NCBI RefSeq assembly: GCF_019203965.1
Contig: NZ_CP076448.1
Span: 1,937,001 to 2,001,000, forward strand
Direction of reading: 5' to 3'
DNA: 64,000 nt
From: Elioraea tepida
GTDB taxonomy: Bacteria; Pseudomonadota; Alphaproteobacteria; Acetobacterales; Acetobacteraceae
Position 1 is the stretch's first letter, and each line of letters begins with the position of its first letter. A program made the position numbers and the translations under genes. Below the pieces are notes generated by a model, which made no database searches, had not been told where the DNA came from, and worked only from the letters and a program-made list of their open reading frames with translations. This document shows positions 21,709 to 62,577 of this stretch, one piece after another.

Positions 21709-21870
21709 GGCCGGTGTTCCGCTCTGTCGCGAGGGAGAGGCGCCTTCAAGCACGCGCCCCGCCACACCGCAAGACCGCCCTCCGGGGCGAGCGCGGCGTG
21801 GTTCCCTCTGTGCCACCGCTGCTCTAGAAGCGAGGGCTATGCTGAACGACACCCGCGGAGCCTGCCCGCC

Positions 21871-31171: not shown

Positions 31172-31349
31172 CGTTGCGGCTATCGGGCTTGCCTGGCCGA
31201 ATGGGAGGCTGCCTCGATCGCGCGCGCAAGCGCAGGCGCATGACGGCTCGGTCTGGGCGGCGAGCGAGCCGGATACCGGCCGCGGCCGTTCTGCTCTAGG
31301 CTCGGCCGGTCTGACGTTGTTCGGAGGATGCGCCATACCATTCCGTTCG

Positions 31350-32441
31350 ATGCCGCGCTGTGCGGAAAAGGAGATCGCCCCCGAGGACAAGCCCTGCCGG
31401 CACCTCCCTGCGCGCCTGCCGCTCTGGGGGGATGGCCGCCGGGGGGCGATCGGCATTCTCGGCGGGTCGTTCAACCCTGCCCACGAGGGGCACCGCCATA
31501 TCGCTCTCGCGGCGCTCAAGCGTCTTGGGCTGCGTGCGGTGTGGCTGATGGTCAGCCCCGGCAATCCGCTGAAACCCACCGATGGCATGGGCGTCTTCGA
31601 GGACAGGCTCGCCTCGGCAACGGTGATCGCCGGCGGCCACCCGAGGATCGTGCCGACCGACATCGAAGCGCGCATCGGCACACGCTACACGCGGCAGACG
31701 CTTGCGGTGCTTCGGCGTCGCTTCCGGCGCGCCCGGCTTGTCTGGTTGATGGGGGCGGACAACCAGGTGCAGATCCCGCGCTGGCAGGGCTGGAGGCGGA
31801 TCTTCGGCATGGTTCCGGTGGTGGTATTCCCACGCCCGGGCTGGACACGGGCGGCGCTTTCGGGCCTTGCGACGCGGCGCATGGCGAGGGCGCGCAGGCG
31901 AGCGGCCGCGGCGCGCGCCCTGCCGTGGCTCGAGGCGCCGGCCTGGGTGTTCCTGCCGGGACGCGAGCACCCGGCCTCGGCGACGATGATCCGTGCCGCC
32001 CGCGCCGCCGCGCGTGGGGAGGGGGCCGACGTGCGTCGGCCGAGGCGTGCGCCGACGCCGAAGCGCGTCACGGACGGTGCCATCACTCGTCCAGGACTCG
32101 AGCCCCTGACGCGCCTCGTGGTCGAGAGCCTGGAGTCCGACAAGGCGGAGGACGTCGTGGTGCTCGATCTCACGGGTAAGGCCGCCTTCGCCGACCGGAT
32201 GGTGGTCGCCTCCGGCCTCGCCAACCGGCAGATCCAGGCGATGGCGGAACACCTCGTCGAGAAGCTCGAGAGGGCCGGGGTTGCCCGGGTGCACACCGAG
32301 GGGCTCGGCAGTTCCGACTGGGTGCTGATCGATGCGGGCGACATCGTCGTGCACCTGTTCCGGCCGGAGACGCGAGCGCTCTATGCGCTCGAGAAGATGT
32401 GGGGCGTGACGCTGCCCGGGGAGGAGGCGGCGCGCGGCTGA
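31350..32441 (+). CDS. NadD-RsfS fusion: nicotinate-nucleotide adenylyltransferase joined to ribosomal silencing factor
   Basis: One open frame of 363 residues covers two proteins normally encoded separately. Residues ~35-215 are NadD: IGILGGSFNPAHEGHRHIAL (nucleotidyl-transferase HxGH-type motif), GADNQVQIPRW and HPASATMIRAA. Residues ~250-360 are RsfS: EDVVVLDLTGKAAFADRMVVASG, GLGSSDWVLIDAGDIVVHLF and YALEKMWG. About 35 residues rich in Arg link them, with no stop between. NadD makes the NAD precursor; RsfS binds uL14 and blocks subunit joining in starvation. An internal GTG near 32030 could also give free RsfS. Fusion versus internal start cannot be decided here. Confidence 0.85.
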   Translation: MPRCAEKEIAPEDKPCRHLPARLPLWGDGRRGAIGILGGSFNPAHEGHRHIALAALKRLGLRAVWLMVSPGNPLKPTDGMGVFEDRLASATVIAGGHPRIVPTDIEARIGTRYTRQTLAVLRRRFRRARLVWLMGADNQVQIPRWQGWRRIFGMVPVVVFPRPGWTRAALSGLATRRMARARRRAAAARALPWLEAPAWVFLPGREHPASATMIRAARAAARGEGADVRRPRRAPTPKRVTDGAITRPGLEPLTRLVVESLESDKAEDVVVLDLTGKAAFADRMVVASGLANRQIQAMAEHLVEKLERAGVARVHTEGLGSSDWVLIDAGDIVVHLFRPETRALYALEKMWGVTLPGEEAARG

Positions 32442-32451
32442 CGCGCCCCGC

Positions 32452-33138
32452 TCAGGCGTGGGCGCGCTCGACGACTCGCCCGTCCTCCATCGCCACCACG
32501 CGATCGGCGATGTCGAGGATCCGCGGGTCATGCGTCACGAGCAGGATCGTGCGTCCCTGTTGCTTGGCGAGGTCGCGGAGGAGGTGCATCGTTTCGCCCC
32601 CGGTTCGGCCGTCGAGCGCGGCGGTGGGTTCGTCGGCAAGCACGAGGCCGGGGGCGTGCACGAGCGCGCGGGCGATCGCGACCCGTTGGCGCTGCCCGCC
32701 CGAGAGGGTGGCGGGATAGGCCTCCGTCTTGTCGGCGAGGCCGACGGAGGCGAGCGCCGCATCCGCCCGAGCGAGCCGTTCCGCTTCGTCGAGGGAGGGA
32801 TCAAGTTCGAGCGCCATCGCCACGTTCTGCCGCGCGGTGAGAAAGCCGAGCAGGTTGTGGTGCTGGAAGATGAAGCCGATCCGCCTGCGCAACGCCACGC
32901 GTTCGGCCTCTGTTGCGCCGGCAAGCTCGGTGCCGAGCACGCGGCAGGAGCCCTCCTGGACGGCCCGAAGCGCGCCGACGAGGGTGAGCAGCGTGGTCTT
33001 TCCAGACCCGGACGGGCCGGTGAGAAGCACGATCTCGCCAGGCGCGACGGCGAGGGTGAGGTCCTCGAGCACCGGCTTCGCGAGGCCGCCATCGCCGAAG
33101 CGATGCGTCAGGCCGCGGACGTCGATCGCCCAGTCCAT
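32452..33138 (-). CDS. ABC exporter ATPase, DevA type
   Basis: A 228-residue ATPase with Walker A GPSGSGKTTL, signature LSGGQRQRVAIARAL, Walker B LVLADEPTAALD and a switch His in LVTHDPR. It follows the permease by seven bases and belongs to the DevBCA/MacB-like group of exporters coupled to a periplasmic adaptor. The substrate is unknown; a local TetR regulator suggests an inducible exporter. Confidence 0.9.
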   Translation of the reverse strand: MDWAIDVRGLTHRFGDGGLAKPVLEDLTLAVAPGEIVLLTGPSGSGKTTLLTLVGALRAVQEGSCRVLGTELAGATEAERVALRRRIGFIFQHHNLLGFLTARQNVAMALELDPSLDEAERLARADAALASVGLADKTEAYPATLSGGQRQRVAIARALVHAPGLVLADEPTAALDGRTGGETMHLLRDLAKQQGRTILLVTHDPRILDIADRVVAMEDGRVVERAHA

Positions 33139-40754: not shown

Positions 40755-42641
40755 ATGTGCGGTTTCGCAGGCCTCCTCGACCCTCAGCGACGGCAGGGCG
40801 AAGCGCTCGCGCTTGCTGTTGCGATGGCTGAGCGGATCTGCCACCGCGGCCCGGACGATGACGGCGCCTGGGCGGATCCGGAAGCCGGGCTCGCCTTCGC
40901 CTTCCGGCGGCTTGCCATACTCGACCTCACGCCCGCGGGGCATCAGCCCATGTCCTCTGCGGACGGCCGCTTCGTCATCGTCTTCAACGGCGAGATTTAC
41001 AACCACCGGGAGCTGCGCCGCGGTCTCGCCATCCCGTGGCGCGGCCGGTCCGACACGGAGGCGCTCGTCGAATCGATCGCTGCCCGCGGCCTTGACGAGA
41101 CGCTCGCCCGCGCCGACGGCATGTTCGCCTTCGCGCTGTGGGACAGGCGCGACCGCGTGCTGCATCTCGCGCGCGACCGCTTCGGCGAGAAGCCGCTTTA
41201 CATCGCGCGGCTTGCGGCCGCTCTCGCCTTCGCCTCCGAGGCGAAATGCTTCTCCGCCCTGCCCGCGCTTGACCGCACGCCGGACGAGGAGGCGCTCGCC
41301 GGTTTCCTGCGCTTTGGCTATATCCCCGCCCCCCGATCGGCCTGGCGCAGCGTGCGCAAGCTCAGGGCAGGGGAGGTCCTCTCCGTCCCGCTCGACCGCG
41401 CCGGTGACCCGCCGGAGCCCAGGCTCTACTGGGACGCCGTTGCGGAGGCGGAACGCGCGGCGGCAGCACCCTTCCGCGGCTCTGCCGACGAGGCGGTGGC
41501 GGAGGTCCGCGCACGCCTCCGCGCAGCGGTCGCAAGCCGGCTCGAATCGGACGTACCCTTGGGCGCTTTCCTCTCCGGCGGCATCGACTCCTCGATCGTG
41601 GTCGCGGCGATGGCGGCAATCGGCGCGCGGCCGAAAAGCTTCACCATCGCCTTCCCGGGAACCCCCTACGACGAGGCCCCGCATGCCGCAGCGATCGCCC
41701 GCGAGCTCGGCACCGACCATCACGTCCTGCCCGTCGCGGAGGCCGAGGCGATCGCCGTCGCGCCAACCCTCGTCGAGACCTATGACGAGCCCTTCGCCGA
41801 TGCCTCAGCCCTGCCGACGCTTCTGCTTGCGCGTCTGACCCGCTCCCACGTCACGGTCGCGCTTTCGGGCGATGCCGGGGACGAACTCTTCGCAGGCTAT
41901 CCGCGCCTGCATGCGGCGGCAGCCGTCTGGCGCCGGGCGTCCATCCTTCCCGCTCAACTGCGTCGCCTCGCGCGTGGCCTCGCCCGCGCCGCGCCGCCCG
42001 GAAGCTTCACCTGGGGCCGGCTGCTCGCCCAGCTCTCTGCGCGGATGCCGCTCTCGCCTGCCGAAGCGGCACAAGGCACGGTGCAGCGCTGGCCGCCGGA
42101 ACACCGTCTCGCGACCGCCGCTGCGCCCGGCCTCGGCCTGTCGCCGCAGCCGAAGCTCTCCCCGCTGCGCACGGCGATGCTGCAGGACCTGCGGACCTAC
42201 CTGCCGGACGATCTGATGGTGAAGGTCGACCGCGCGGCGATGAGCGTCTCGCTCGAGCCGCGCGCGCCGCTGCTTGCGATCGAGTTCGTGCGTTTCTGCT
42301 GGTCCCTGCCTGAGGCGCTTCTGACCGACGCAGGCGACGGCTTCACCGGCGCCAAGGCCCTGCTTCGGCGTGCGCTCTCCTTCGACCTTCCACGCACCCT
42401 GTTCGAACGACCAAAGCAAGGATTCGAGCCTCCCGTTGGGCTGTGGCTCCGCAGCCCGCTGCGCGGCTGGGCAGAGGCGCTTCTGGCACAGCCTCGGCTC
42501 GCTCGTTCCGGCCTGATCGCCCGCCCTGGGCTTATCCGCCGCATCTGGGCCGAACATCTTTCCGGGCGCAGGTCCCACACGCACAGGCTGTGGACGCTTC
42601 TGATGCTCCTCGCTTGGGCCGAGCGTGAGGGGATCCACTGA
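40755..42641 (+). CDS. asnB: asparagine synthase (glutamine-hydrolysing) AsnB
   Basis: A 628-residue amidotransferase. The N-terminal nucleophile Cys2 (MCGFAGLLD) and NGEIYNHRELR give the glutaminase; FLSGGIDSSIVVAAM is the PP-loop for aspartate activation. AsnB paralogues of this length often lie in exopolysaccharide clusters and may amidate a sugar acid rather than free aspartate; the glycosyltransferase and methyltransferase upstream favour that. The stop codon is the edge of a MITE-like element. Confidence 0.9.
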   Translation: MCGFAGLLDPQRRQGEALALAVAMAERICHRGPDDDGAWADPEAGLAFAFRRLAILDLTPAGHQPMSSADGRFVIVFNGEIYNHRELRRGLAIPWRGRSDTEALVESIAARGLDETLARADGMFAFALWDRRDRVLHLARDRFGEKPLYIARLAAALAFASEAKCFSALPALDRTPDEEALAGFLRFGYIPAPRSAWRSVRKLRAGEVLSVPLDRAGDPPEPRLYWDAVAEAERAAAAPFRGSADEAVAEVRARLRAAVASRLESDVPLGAFLSGGIDSSIVVAAMAAIGARPKSFTIAFPGTPYDEAPHAAAIARELGTDHHVLPVAEAEAIAVAPTLVETYDEPFADASALPTLLLARLTRSHVTVALSGDAGDELFAGYPRLHAAAAVWRRASILPAQLRRLARGLARAAPPGSFTWGRLLAQLSARMPLSPAEAAQGTVQRWPPEHRLATAAAPGLGLSPQPKLSPLRTAMLQDLRTYLPDDLMVKVDRAAMSVSLEPRAPLLAIEFVRFCWSLPEALLTDAGDGFTGAKALLRRALSFDLPRTLFERPKQGFEPPVGLWLRSPLRGWAEALLAQPRLARSGLIARPGLIRRIWAEHLSGRRSHTHRLWTLLMLLAWAEREGIH

Positions 42642-42736
42642 GCGGGTTCCACACGAGTGGAAACCGGCCAACACATACTCTTCGACCGTCTTCACGGACT
42701 GAGCTGATTCCAGCCGTGTGCGATCTGCTCTGAGCG
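42639..42736 (-). mobile_element. MITE-like element, copy A
   Basis: About 95 bases that, read on the minus strand, begin AGAGCAGATCGCACACGGCT and end near GGTTTCCACTCGTG...GCTCA. The same start and the same terminal stem-loop occur in the element at 61806-61902. It has no coding content. It begins at the TGA of asnB, so it may have supplied or replaced the original sequence there. TGAGCGG appears at both borders. Confidence 0.65.
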
Positions 42737-42942: not shown

Positions 42943-44052
42943 ATGCCGGGACGCTCAACCTCCGTCGCACTCCTCTTCATCGCCGCCCTGGTCGGCGGCG
43001 AGGCCGCGGCAGGGCCGCTCGTCGACCGCCCGATCATCATCGCCCATCGCGGCGCCTCCGGTTACCTGCCCGAGCATACGCTCGAGGCCTACCGGCTCGG
43101 CATACGCCAGGGGGCGGATTTCATCGAGCCTGACCTGTTCCTCACGCGCGACGGCAAACTGGTCGCCCTGCACGACGACACGCTGAACGCGACGACGAAC
43201 ATCGAGGCCCTTGCCGCCACGCGGCCTGACTGGTTCGCGCGTGGCCGGGACGTCGGCGGGCGTCGACTCTACTATGTGTTTGACTTCGACTTCGACGAGA
43301 TCCGTGAGCTCACCGCCCGCTCGCGCGGCACGGCCGGTTACTCGCGGCCCGGCAACGGGTTCTATGACGGAACCGAACCATTCCGGGTGCCGAGCTTCGC
43401 CGAGGTGCTCGAGGTCTCCTACGATCATTTCCGCGAGACCGGACAGGTCGTCGGCGTCTATCCCGAGCTGAAGTTCACCTCCGCCCTGCCCCCGGCGGAC
43501 GGGCTCGCCTATCTGCGCGCCATGGCGGATGCGACGCTTGCCGAACTCGCCGATCCGCGCTGGGGCGGCTTCTTCGACGGCAGCCGCGGGAACGTGTTCA
43601 TCCAGTCCTTCATCCCCGCCGTGCTTCAGTACGCCAGGGATCTGACGACGCTGCCGCTGATCGCCCTCACCTTCACCCTGCCAAACGGGGCCGGTTTCCC
43701 ACCCGTTCCCACCTGCCCCACGACCCCGGAAGCGGCGGCCGCGCTTGCCTCCTTCGCGCAAGGGATCGGCGTGAACGCCGCCGCGGCGACCGAGGCCTGC
43801 ATTGCCGCCGCGCACGAGGCGGGCCTCTTGGTGCACGTCTACACGCTCACCGACCGGGCTGAGGATTATCGCCTGTTCCTCGAGCGCGGCGTCGACGGGA
43901 TCTTCAGCAACCACCCCGATATCGGTGTCGGCGTGCGCAACGCTCTGTTCCCTGTGCCCGAACCAGCCTCGCTCGCCATCCTCGGCGCCGGGCTGTTCGG
44001 ACTGCTCGGCGTGTCCTTCGCGCGGCGCGGTTCGGGGGCGGTCACGCGCTGA
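42943..44052 (+). CDS. secreted glycerophosphodiester phosphodiesterase with PEP-CTERM anchor
   Basis: A 369-residue exported enzyme. A signal peptide (about 22 residues) precedes IIIAHRGASGYLPEHTLEAY and ADFIEPDLFLTRDGKLVALHD, the HRG and E-x-D metal site of GlpQ-like enzymes that release glycerol phosphate. The C-terminus VPEPASLAILGAGLFGLLG followed by ARRGS is a PEP-CTERM signal: a VPEP motif, membrane helix and basic tail recognised by exosortase. The protein would be processed at the cell surface. The exosortase is not in this window. Confidence 0.93.
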   Translation: MPGRSTSVALLFIAALVGGEAAAGPLVDRPIIIAHRGASGYLPEHTLEAYRLGIRQGADFIEPDLFLTRDGKLVALHDDTLNATTNIEALAATRPDWFARGRDVGGRRLYYVFDFDFDEIRELTARSRGTAGYSRPGNGFYDGTEPFRVPSFAEVLEVSYDHFRETGQVVGVYPELKFTSALPPADGLAYLRAMADATLAELADPRWGGFFDGSRGNVFIQSFIPAVLQYARDLTTLPLIALTFTLPNGAGFPPVPTCPTTPEAAAALASFAQGIGVNAAAATEACIAAAHEAGLLVHVYTLTDRAEDYRLFLERGVDGIFSNHPDIGVGVRNALFPVPEPASLAILGAGLFGLLGVSFARRGSGAVTR

Positions 44053-44413: not shown

Positions 44414-45943
44414 ATGCTGACGAGACGTCATCTGGTCGCCGCGGTCGCTGCCGGTGCGATCGCGGTCTCGATCGGGGCGGCAGACGCTGCGCCGGTCAAG
44501 AACGTGATGCTGTTCATCTCCGACGGCGCCTCCTGGGGCACCTGGGACATGGCGTCCTACTGGGCGACGGGGGAGCAGCGCGGCCAAGCCTATCAGAACT
44601 TCCCGGTACGGCTCGGCATGACGACCTATCCGCTGAACACCTCGAGCACGCCGACGAACACGGGAACGCCGCAGATCTCCTACGATCCCACGCGGGCATG
44701 GGACACGACCCCGAACGCGGGCAGCTTCGGCGGGCGGCCCTCCTTCTTCAACGGCTACGACTACATCAAGCGCAACTATCCCGACTCGGCAGCGGCCGGC
44801 ACCGCGCTCGCGACCGGCGCCAAGACCTACAACAACGCAATCAACTTCGACGATTACGGGAATCCTCTTCCCTACATCACCCAGGAGGCGAAGGCGCTCG
44901 GCCGCGCCACGGGCGTGGTGACGTCGGTGCCGTTCAGCCACGCCACACCGGCCGTGTTCGGGTCGCAGAACATCAGCCGCAACAACTACCATCAGATCGC
45001 CGAGCAGATGCTCGCCAACCCTGATCTCGACCTGATCATGGGCGCGGGGCACCCGCTCTACAACTCGAACGGTCAGGCGCGGTCGACACCGAGCGAGACC
45101 TACATGACGGTCGACCAGCTCACCCGGCTGCAGTCCGGTGACCCGATCTACAACCGCACCCTCATCACCTCGCTCGACGAGTTCCGGGCGATGGCGGATG
45201 GAAGCGTCGTCCCGACCGGGCGGGTTATCGGCCTCGCCGAGGTGGGCGACACGCTTCAGGCGAACCGGAACCGGCCGGTCGATCCGTCCGTCATCTCGGT
45301 CGCGAGCGGCAATGCCTCCGGCGTGCCGTTCAACACCAACGTGCCGACCCTGGTGGAGATGACGGCGGGGGCCATCAACTATCTCTCGCGCAACCCTGAC
45401 GGTTTCTTCCTCATGGTCGAGGGCGGGGCGGTCGACTGGATGGCGCATGCGAACAACACGGCCCGGATCATCGAGGAGCAGGTGGATTTCGACCGATCGG
45501 TCGCGTGGGCGATCAACTGGGTCGAGGAATATTCGAACTGGAATGAGACGCTCCTGATCGTTCTCACCGACCATGGCAACGGCATGCCGATGGGCCCTCA
45601 GTCCGATCGCATCCCGTTCCAGCCGATCGAGAACCGCGGTCAGGGGAACCTCCCCGGTGTTCTCTGGCACTATGGCACGCACACCAACGAGGTGACTCTG
45701 CTTTGGGCCAAAGGTGCGGGTGCGGAGCGGCTGTATGACTTCGTCGTCGGTGTCGACCAAGGCCTCGTTGAGTTCCTTCAGTTCAACGACGGGCGCTACA
45801 TCGACAACACCGCCATCTACCCGATCATGCGCATGGCGATGATGGGTCAGCCCGTGCCCGAGCCTGCCTCGGTCGCGCTCATGCTGATGGGCCTTGCCGG
45901 GCTCGGCGCCGTCGCCCGCCGCGCGCGCCGCGCAACGGCCTGA
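44414..45943 (+). CDS. secreted alkaline phosphatase with PEP-CTERM anchor
   Basis: A 509-residue PhoA-family enzyme. After a signal peptide (about 25 residues), VMLFISDGASWG holds the first metal Asp; DSAAAGTALATGAKTYNNAI contains the active-site Ser; GGAVDWMAHANN and LTDHGNG supply metal ligands. The end VPEPASVALMLMGLAGLGAVARRARRA is a PEP-CTERM signal. With the neighbouring phosphodiesterase it forms a two-gene set for freeing phosphate outside the cell. Confidence 0.93.
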   Translation: MLTRRHLVAAVAAGAIAVSIGAADAAPVKNVMLFISDGASWGTWDMASYWATGEQRGQAYQNFPVRLGMTTYPLNTSSTPTNTGTPQISYDPTRAWDTTPNAGSFGGRPSFFNGYDYIKRNYPDSAAAGTALATGAKTYNNAINFDDYGNPLPYITQEAKALGRATGVVTSVPFSHATPAVFGSQNISRNNYHQIAEQMLANPDLDLIMGAGHPLYNSNGQARSTPSETYMTVDQLTRLQSGDPIYNRTLITSLDEFRAMADGSVVPTGRVIGLAEVGDTLQANRNRPVDPSVISVASGNASGVPFNTNVPTLVEMTAGAINYLSRNPDGFFLMVEGGAVDWMAHANNTARIIEEQVDFDRSVAWAINWVEEYSNWNETLLIVLTDHGNGMPMGPQSDRIPFQPIENRGQGNLPGVLWHYGTHTNEVTLLWAKGAGAERLYDFVVGVDQGLVEFLQFNDGRYIDNTAIYPIMRMAMMGQPVPEPASVALMLMGLAGLGAVARRARRATA

Positions 45944-61436: not shown

Positions 61437-61766
61437 CCTGCCGCCGTTTCCTCGCCCGTCCCGGGGTTGCCCTTGTTGCCCCACATCACGCCACACGGTC
61501 TCGCCGAGGGCCAGGGGGCGTGCTTCGGGGCGATCGCCGGCGGCGTGATCCGACCCGGGCCTTCACCCTCAGGTGGAGGACGCGGGCGTGTCGGAACATC
61601 TTACAGTTCGGGTTCACACCCGTGGCGCGCGTCCGCAACGCTCTGGAGCTGCACGGTTTTCTCGTGCAACACGGATATTGCTGCGAAACTTCGCGGCTGG
61701 CGGAGAGAGGCCTTCCCGGCGGCGTGGCGACCGGAAAACAACACGCAGCGACACGGAGTAAGGCTC
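61437..61766. other. 330-base gap with a short conserved motif upstream of the broken PEP-CTERM gene
   Basis: No gene is recognised. At 61587-61605 the motif CGTGTCGGAACATCTTACA matches 16 of 19 bases at 62559-62577. A good ribosome site (GGAGTAAGG) lies just before the ATG at 61767. Confidence 0.45.
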
Positions 61767-62546
61767 ATGAAAAGGACAGTTCTGGCGGGGGTGGCGGCAG
61801 CGGGCCTAGAGCAGATCGCATACGGCTGGAAACAGCCGTAGGCGTGAAGATGCTCGCAAGATAAGGCCAGAGCGGTTTCCACTCATCTGGAAACCGCTCT
61901 AGCGCTCGCGTCACCGACCGCACAGGCGGCGCCAACGATCGGCACCACCGCCGCCAACAACGACGTCATCGGCCAAGTCAGGGGCTGGTTCGGTGCGCAG
62001 TGGTATCTGATCGCAGGCGCGACCACCACGGTCGAGGTGTTTTACATCGGCCGGGAGGCCCGCTGGGACAACACCTTCACGATCGGCGGGTCGACCTACG
62101 GGCCTTTCGCGAATACCAGTGGCATCTCGATGCTGTTCGGCGGAACGGAGGCGCCGCAGCAGCTGGCCAACGCGTCGATCAACCCCCGGCTGATCGAATT
62201 CTCCTTCACGACGCCGAACGATACCGTCACCAACGGCAGCAACCCGGGCCAGGCGTTCGCTCCGGAGTTCTGGTCGGCGGTCTACACCTGCGACCTCTCG
62301 GAGGCGAACCTCGCTACCTCCTGCGCCTGGGGCACGGGCAGCACGGCGAGCAGCGGCAACACACTGATCCTCGCTCTCGATGACGGTGGTGGCGGGCGGG
62401 ACGACAACCACGATGACCTCGTGATGGTCATCCGAATCTCGAACGGCAGGTTCGAGACTCCCGTTCCCGAGCCCGCCACGCTCGGGCCGCTCGGGGCAGG
62501 CCTGATCGGGCTCGGCTTCGTCGCCCGCCGACGCCGCAGGGCCTGA
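61767..62546 (+). pseudogene. PEP-CTERM exported protein, signal peptide interrupted by a MITE-like element
   Basis: The start reads MKRTVLAGVAAAGL, then the element at 61806-61902 adds an in-frame TAG. Removing 93 bases between the two CTAG borders restores the frame as ...AAGL-ALASPTAQA-APTIG, a textbook signal peptide with an AxA-type cleavage site. The mature part (GWFGAQWYLIAGATTTVEVFYIGREARWDN...) is a small secreted protein I do not otherwise recognise. It ends VPEPATLGPLGAGLIGLGFVA with a basic tail, a PEP-CTERM signal. As it stands the exported protein cannot be made from the normal start. Confidence 0.88.
61806..61902 (+). mobile_element. MITE-like element, copy B, inserted at CTAG
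   Basis: About 93 bases bordered by CTAG on both sides (61806-61809 and 61899-61902). The left part begins GAGCAGATCGCATACGGCTG and the right end is a stem-loop AGAGCGGTTTCCA/TGGAAACCGCTCT. It shares both parts with copy A at 42639. Insertion at CTAG with a TA duplication is the habit of IS630-type transposases, so it may be moved by one elsewhere in the genome (inference). No coding capacity. Confidence 0.75.
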
Positions 62547-62558
62547 CTGTTACAGAGC

Positions 62559-62577
62559 CGTGTCGGAAAACTTTACA
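62559..62577. promoter_or_regulatory. second copy of the CGTGTCGGAA motif
   Basis: CGTGTCGGAAAACTTTACA, 19 bases, lies 12 bases after the PEP-CTERM stop and just before the terminator. The other copy is before the same gene. The pair brackets the gene; function unknown. Confidence 0.4.

Follow-up and report, generated by a model that had tools for sequence, protein, structure and literature searches.

The 64,000-nucleotide stretch of the Elioraea tepida genome that was analysed (the window) contains a gene for a PEP-CTERM protein, spanning positions 61767 to 62546, that is interrupted by a small mobile element. The gene has both a signal peptide and a PEP-CTERM sorting tag, and the element, a MITE, sits within the signal-peptide codons and splits them. 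The description of the element as a 93-base unit with CTAG on both borders, made earlier from the sequence alone, is correct. The features of the locus are collected in Table 1.

Table 1. The interrupted PEP-CTERM gene and the element within it, in window positions
Feature	Position	Strand	Remark
MITE, CTAG to CTAG inclusive	61806..61902	.	93-bp unit and a single copy of the 4-base flank
Left CTAG, presumed target with TA duplicated	61806..61809	.	
Right CTAG	61899..61902	.	93 bp from left CTAG
Hairpin I of MITE, left module	61809..61855	+	similar in the 108-bp cousin of genome G162
Hairpin II of MITE, right module	61869..61900	+	13-bp stem
5' piece of PEP-CTERM gene	61767..61808	+	first 14 codons, signal peptide start
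3' piece of PEP-CTERM gene	61902..62546	+	open to its own stop; no other lesion
Two in-frame stops from MITE	61839..61847	+	TAG 61839-61841, TGA 61845-61847
PEP-CTERM sorting tag, TIGR02595	62463..62540	+	25.2 bits against a cut-off of 16
GGAG, likely ribosome-binding site of PEP-CTERM gene	61755..61758	+	read from sequence
TGTCGGAACATCTTACA, PEP-CTERM motif 1-like	61589..61605	+	one difference in last six bases (TTTACA)

With the element in place, translation from the ATG at 61767 reads MKRTVLAGVAAAGLEQIAYGWKQP, followed by a stop, a single A residue, and another stop. The sequence-only reading had recognized the in-frame TAG but missed the TGA behind it. Fusing the flanks at CTAG yields MKRTVLAGVAAAGLALASPTAQA, a 23-residue signal peptide, and then an open frame to 62546; removal of the element thus restores the gene, as had been proposed. 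The 3' part is free of other lesions, which points to a recent insertion. No in-frame ATG, GTG, or TTG lies between the TGA and the GTG at 62037, so an in-frame restart would not retain the signal peptide. Loss of the PEP-CTERM protein, also part of the original proposal, is supported at the level of the sequence. Intact homologues, whose existence in relatives had been suggested as a check, are found in two other Elioraea genomes with 58% and 59% aligned identity and carry signal peptides similar in length to that of the fused flanks. A syntenic empty allele was not found among the relatives because these homologues lie in other neighbourhoods. Likewise, the same element at the same site with diverged flanks was not seen, and no relative was found with the gene in the same neighbourhood.

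Haft et al. (2006; PMC1569441) describe a 17-nucleotide motif 1 ending in TTTACA that precedes PEP-CTERM genes. A TGTCGGAA...TTACA motif that resembles it flanks the interrupted gene, once upstream at 61589-61605 and once at 62561-62577, about 15 bases past the stop. Loose forms of motif 1 occur near several PEP-CTERM genes among the E. tepida and Elioraea rosea PF-30 (G001) loci, while most loci are without one, and at one mismatch the motif is absent from a 400-kb sample of the E. tepida genome. Two more PEP-CTERM tags are present in the window, at 43954-44028 and 45854-45931.

The ends of the MITE read CTAGAGCAGATC and CTAGAGCGGTTTCC. The inverted repeat common to both is CTAGAGC plus scattered matches, and nothing longer. 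The element is predicted to fold into two hairpins at -49.4 kcal/mol, compared with -25.5 kcal/mol for shuffled sequences (z -7.2). An Rfam search of the window returned two tRNAs and nothing else. CTAG is scarce in this DNA, with 11 occurrences in the window against 54 expected from its trinucleotides. Three further CTAGAGC sites, at window positions 21821, 31293, and 56243 on the minus strand, are possibly decayed remnants; the one at 31293-31299 lies at the stop of a minus-strand open reading frame, 31296-32531.

The E. tepida genome is a single contig of 3.37 Mb, and a search of it with the element gave 12 matches. Nine are at 97-100% identity, two are weaker at 82% and 76%, and the last is a partial, opposite-strand hit to a copy that the search had already returned. 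The nine recent copies hold their identity across 95-97 bases, have unrelated flanks, and in eight of nine cases carry CTAG at both edges. These copies, the fold, and the scarcity of CTAG in the window put the element far outside what chance would give. The copy in the PEP-CTERM gene is oriented as in L001, L002, L003, and L005. A length of 93 bp, the lack of a transposase gene, nine near-identical dispersed copies, and two older ones are as expected of a MITE. The 76% copy (L011, window 42640-42731) is older and without CTAG ends, and the gene adjoining it ends in TGA, perhaps a former TAG. Diverged relatives of the MITE are present in the genus mates E. rosea PF-30 and Elioraea MAG bin.267 (G002). 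Altogether 21 of 150 sampled family genomes, including E. tepida and these two, contain a match, and none was found in the plasmid collection. In genome G162, which represents a third genus, the 108-bp cousin resembles the MITE in its left hairpin and departs from it in the right one (CTAGAGCATGC...), which gives the family a modular, mosaic-like appearance (loci L126-L154).

Empty sites were sought by comparing the joined flanks of six other E. tepida copies with the two genus mates and with G122, a genome of another genus. The six genes are mltA-, rne-, caspase/WD40-, HIBADH-, dnaN-, and deacetylase-like, named from their protein sequences. Among the 18 orthologous loci found, the element is absent from all 17 that are readable; the remaining one (L074) stops short of the site. 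Several of the empty sites have C-TAG at the insertion point. Duplication of TA and duplication of CTAG are inseparable here because CTAG is the target in both cases. A second gene is also broken: a 98% copy (L005:1501-1597) interrupts a WD40/caspase-like gene that is open for 965 codons once its flanks are joined, and the match continues across the insertion site in three relatives.

The likely mover is an element of the IS630 family. The IS630-type catalytic domain PF13358 has 10 matches in the E. tepida genome. IS630, according to Tenzen and Ohtsubo (1991), prefers TA within CTAG as its target, and ISY100 of the same family is described as duplicating TA on insertion. The resident elements L077 and L078 start aligning exactly at CTAGAGCGG; at the two ends of the MITE stand CTAGAGCGG and CTAGAGCAG. 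The other end of L077 is CAGAGCGG, which reads TTCAGAGCGGAATC on the opposite strand, and one end of L079 reads TAAAGCGGTTTTCC. Against the link stand the right end of L077, TTCAGAGCGG, from which the expected TA is missing, and an L079 end given as TAAAGCGG. A second IS630 group (L080-L086) of about 1.17 kb comprises seven near-identical copies with CTAGTGG-like ends and CTAG at one or both edges. No full-length insertion sequence in the E. tepida genome proved to share the exact ends of the MITE; a search with CTAGAGCRGWTY for such an element gave 18 matches there, of which 17 are ends of MITE copies and the last is a lone site. The end match to a resident IS630-family element is short, which makes this family the likeliest, though unproven, kind of partner. 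Since the shared inverted repeat is only CTAGAGC plus scattered matches, the tie to any one IS630 element is suggestive.

The landing sites of the copies are instructive. Genes were called with a purpose-written, non-standard gene finder whose training set was 400 kb of the E. tepida genome in 20 pieces of 20 kb each. Ten E. tepida copies were counted, omitting L011 (76% identity, without CTAG) and L012, which is part of the L008 copy. In six of the ten (L002, L003, L007, L008, L009, and L010), the TAG at the element's end serves as stop codon for the neighbouring gene. Two lie inside genes, L001 in the PEP-CTERM gene and L005 in the WD40/caspase-like gene, and two are intergenic (L004 and L006). 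In G122, 13 of 20 copies occupy stop codons, with G or T as the base before TAG in four, and seven are away from any called stop. At L114, one of the 13, a second, forward gene extends into the opposite end of the copy. The 108-bp cousin of G162 occupies a stop-codon position in 12 of 30 loci among the matches listed (30 of 42), and scoring in that genome covered 40 of 163 first-look candidates. Six copies from G001, G002, and a further genome, G149, were left out of these counts (L013-L017 and L044). At L007:1501-1597 and, among those left out, at L014:1501-1593 of E. rosea, one CTAG palindrome apparently stops two convergent genes, and the element restores both stops.

The abundance of CTAG at stop codons may account for part of this pattern. 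The 400-kb E. tepida sample, which is 86% coding, has 78 CTAG sites, two of which are the ends of the dnaN copy; the remaining 76 divide into 15 stop codons, 18 sites within genes, and 43 intergenic sites. CTAG is therefore rare within genes and common between them and at stops, so that most copies are harmless. Once CTAGAGC-like sites are omitted, non-element CTAG serves as a stop in 14 of 70 cases in E. tepida, 0 of 5 in G122, and 5 of 28 in G162 (19 of 103 in total). One-sided Fisher tests of the stop-codon share give P values of 0.013, 0.015, and 0.058, respectively, and 1.2e-5 when pooled. A modest excess at stop codons beyond the CTAG preference is likely, and survivorship can contribute to it.

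Stops that coincide with an element could also reflect truncation of genes that once ran further. This is not favoured for the six E. tepida genes, whose ends agree with those of relatives. Relatives without the element end dnaN with MRV and a stop in three of three cases and rne with WWRR and a stop in both readable ones. For the HIBADH, deacetylase, and mltA genes and the gene at L008, the last residue in relatives coincides or nearly so, mostly within -2 to +7, and one mltA homologue is about 23 residues longer. Because element-free relatives stop at the same point or close to it, the E. tepida stops look natural. Ten of the 13 G122 genes have homologues among the returned Elioraea loci, and nine of these agree within -2 to +6 residues. 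L115 has paralogues only, ending nine residues earlier, and L110, L117, and L123 have no homologue among the returned loci. One homologue of a G122 gene, L169 in G002, itself carries an element-like CTAGAGC where it stops.

The explanation that very probably holds is that an IS630/Tc1-mariner-type MITE inserted recently into a CTAG and broke the PEP-CTERM gene, and that most copies of it are harmless, those in C-TAG stop codons rebuilding the stop. An IS630-family transposase would move the MITE by cut and paste, inserting it into the TA of a CTAG and duplicating the TA. Since CTAG is present at each end of the element, a landing in a C-TAG stop would remake the stop and spare the protein. A landing in a coding CTAG breaks the gene, and here the secreted PEP-CTERM protein would no longer be made. 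The sequence-only reading of a recent MITE insertion is borne out by the nine near-identical copies, the CTAG on both sides of eight of them, and the empty orthologous sites elsewhere, with further support from the intact homologous PEP-CTERM genes and the resident IS630-family element with similar ends.

That reading had also suggested a possibly reversible, phase-like loss, in which precise exit and return of the element would toggle the surface protein. The fused flanks are in frame at CTAG, and the downstream codons are intact after a recent insertion, as a switch would need. However, no empty allele was seen, the direct repeats are just 4 bp, and the other copies lie at unrelated genes. 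Excision of Tc1/mariner-type elements by cut and paste usually leaves a footprint. In addition, no exosortase (PF09721) was found in the E. tepida genome at an E value of 0.001, which would remove the usual route of the product; G001 and G002 have one each. PEP-CTERM tags number 16 in E. tepida versus 27 and 40 in the two genus mates. With no exosortase found, the PEP-CTERM gene may be dispensable and pseudogene formation is a simpler account than a switch; together with the fewer tags, the insertion better fits a declining sorting system. The suggestion of reversibility is therefore unsupported, and a switch is highly improbable. Most likely the gene was dispensable, and its loss is either fixed or still segregating.

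The tandem arrangement of two hairpins, and the different right hairpin of the G162 cousin, would also suit a palindromic repeat of the REP/BIME kind whose mover is a RAYT (IS200/IS605-like) and not an IS630 transposase, and GTAG REPs are described as supplying a terminal TAG as a stop codon. A single hairpin ending in GTAG is not what the MITE presents: it has two hairpins and CTAG on both sides, as opposed to GTAG at one end, and IS630-family elements that sit at CTAG and have ends resembling those of the MITE are present in the E. tepida genome. A RAYT-moved repeat is unlikely. Slightly less unlikely, and compatible with the IS630-type MITE explanation, is that copies at stop codons are retained because their hairpins help the host through 3' end protection or termination. 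Strong hairpins immediately past the stop and the pooled excess over other CTAG sites would fit such a benefit; yet purging of harmful copies together with the CTAG preference may account for most of that excess, the per-genome numbers are small, and the sites are not conserved between genera, all 17 readable orthologous loci being empty. A broader proposal, that a CTAG-seeking family of the Acetobacterales uses TAG stops, including two-gene CTAG palindromes, as a safe harbour, rebuilding the stop on one strand or both, enriched beyond the CTAG preference, and placing behind the gene a strong hairpin perhaps useful to host mRNA, is tentative and on balance doubtful.

The insertion is real, recent, and mostly ordinary. 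The MITE shows cleanly how a small mobile element can multiply while doing little damage to a genome that is GC-rich and dense in genes, as its four-base target is scarce within genes and common at stops, and its ends restore the stop. It also marks a recent, checkable loss of a PEP-CTERM gene in a genome without a detected exosortase. A limited literature search returned no description of stop-codon landing by an IS630-type MITE.

Several known systems resemble this MITE in part. RUP, the repeat unit of pneumococcus, which is associated with IS630-Spn1, is likewise about 100 bp long and non-coding, with TA ends and short terminal repeats that resemble those of an IS630 element in its own genome (PMC2229807). 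It differs in sequence and host and is described as intergenic, and a CTAG target and stop-codon landing go unmentioned in the accessible part of that source. IS630 has the same target tetranucleotide, CTAG (Tenzen and Ohtsubo, 1991), but is autonomous and encodes its transposase. MITEPsy1 of Pseudomonas syringae, of 100 nt, inserts at CTAG or YTAA and has been shown to be mobile; it differs in its 4-nt duplication, IS5-like parent, and 18-nt inverted repeats (PMC3189936). The ends of GTAG-tagged REPs often provide the TAG stop of flanking reading frames (PMC3733652). These REPs differ in being 20-40-bp palindromes that are linked to RAYTs and have GTAG at one end. The BOX repeat of S. pneumoniae is modular and composed of boxA, boxB, and boxC. 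It is reported to encode the stop in 36 coding sequences without strong evidence of truncation, although it is not described, in the accessible part of the source, as an element that targets CTAG (PMC3049150). Repeat-supplied stop codons are thus already known from GTAG REPs and from pneumococcal BOX.
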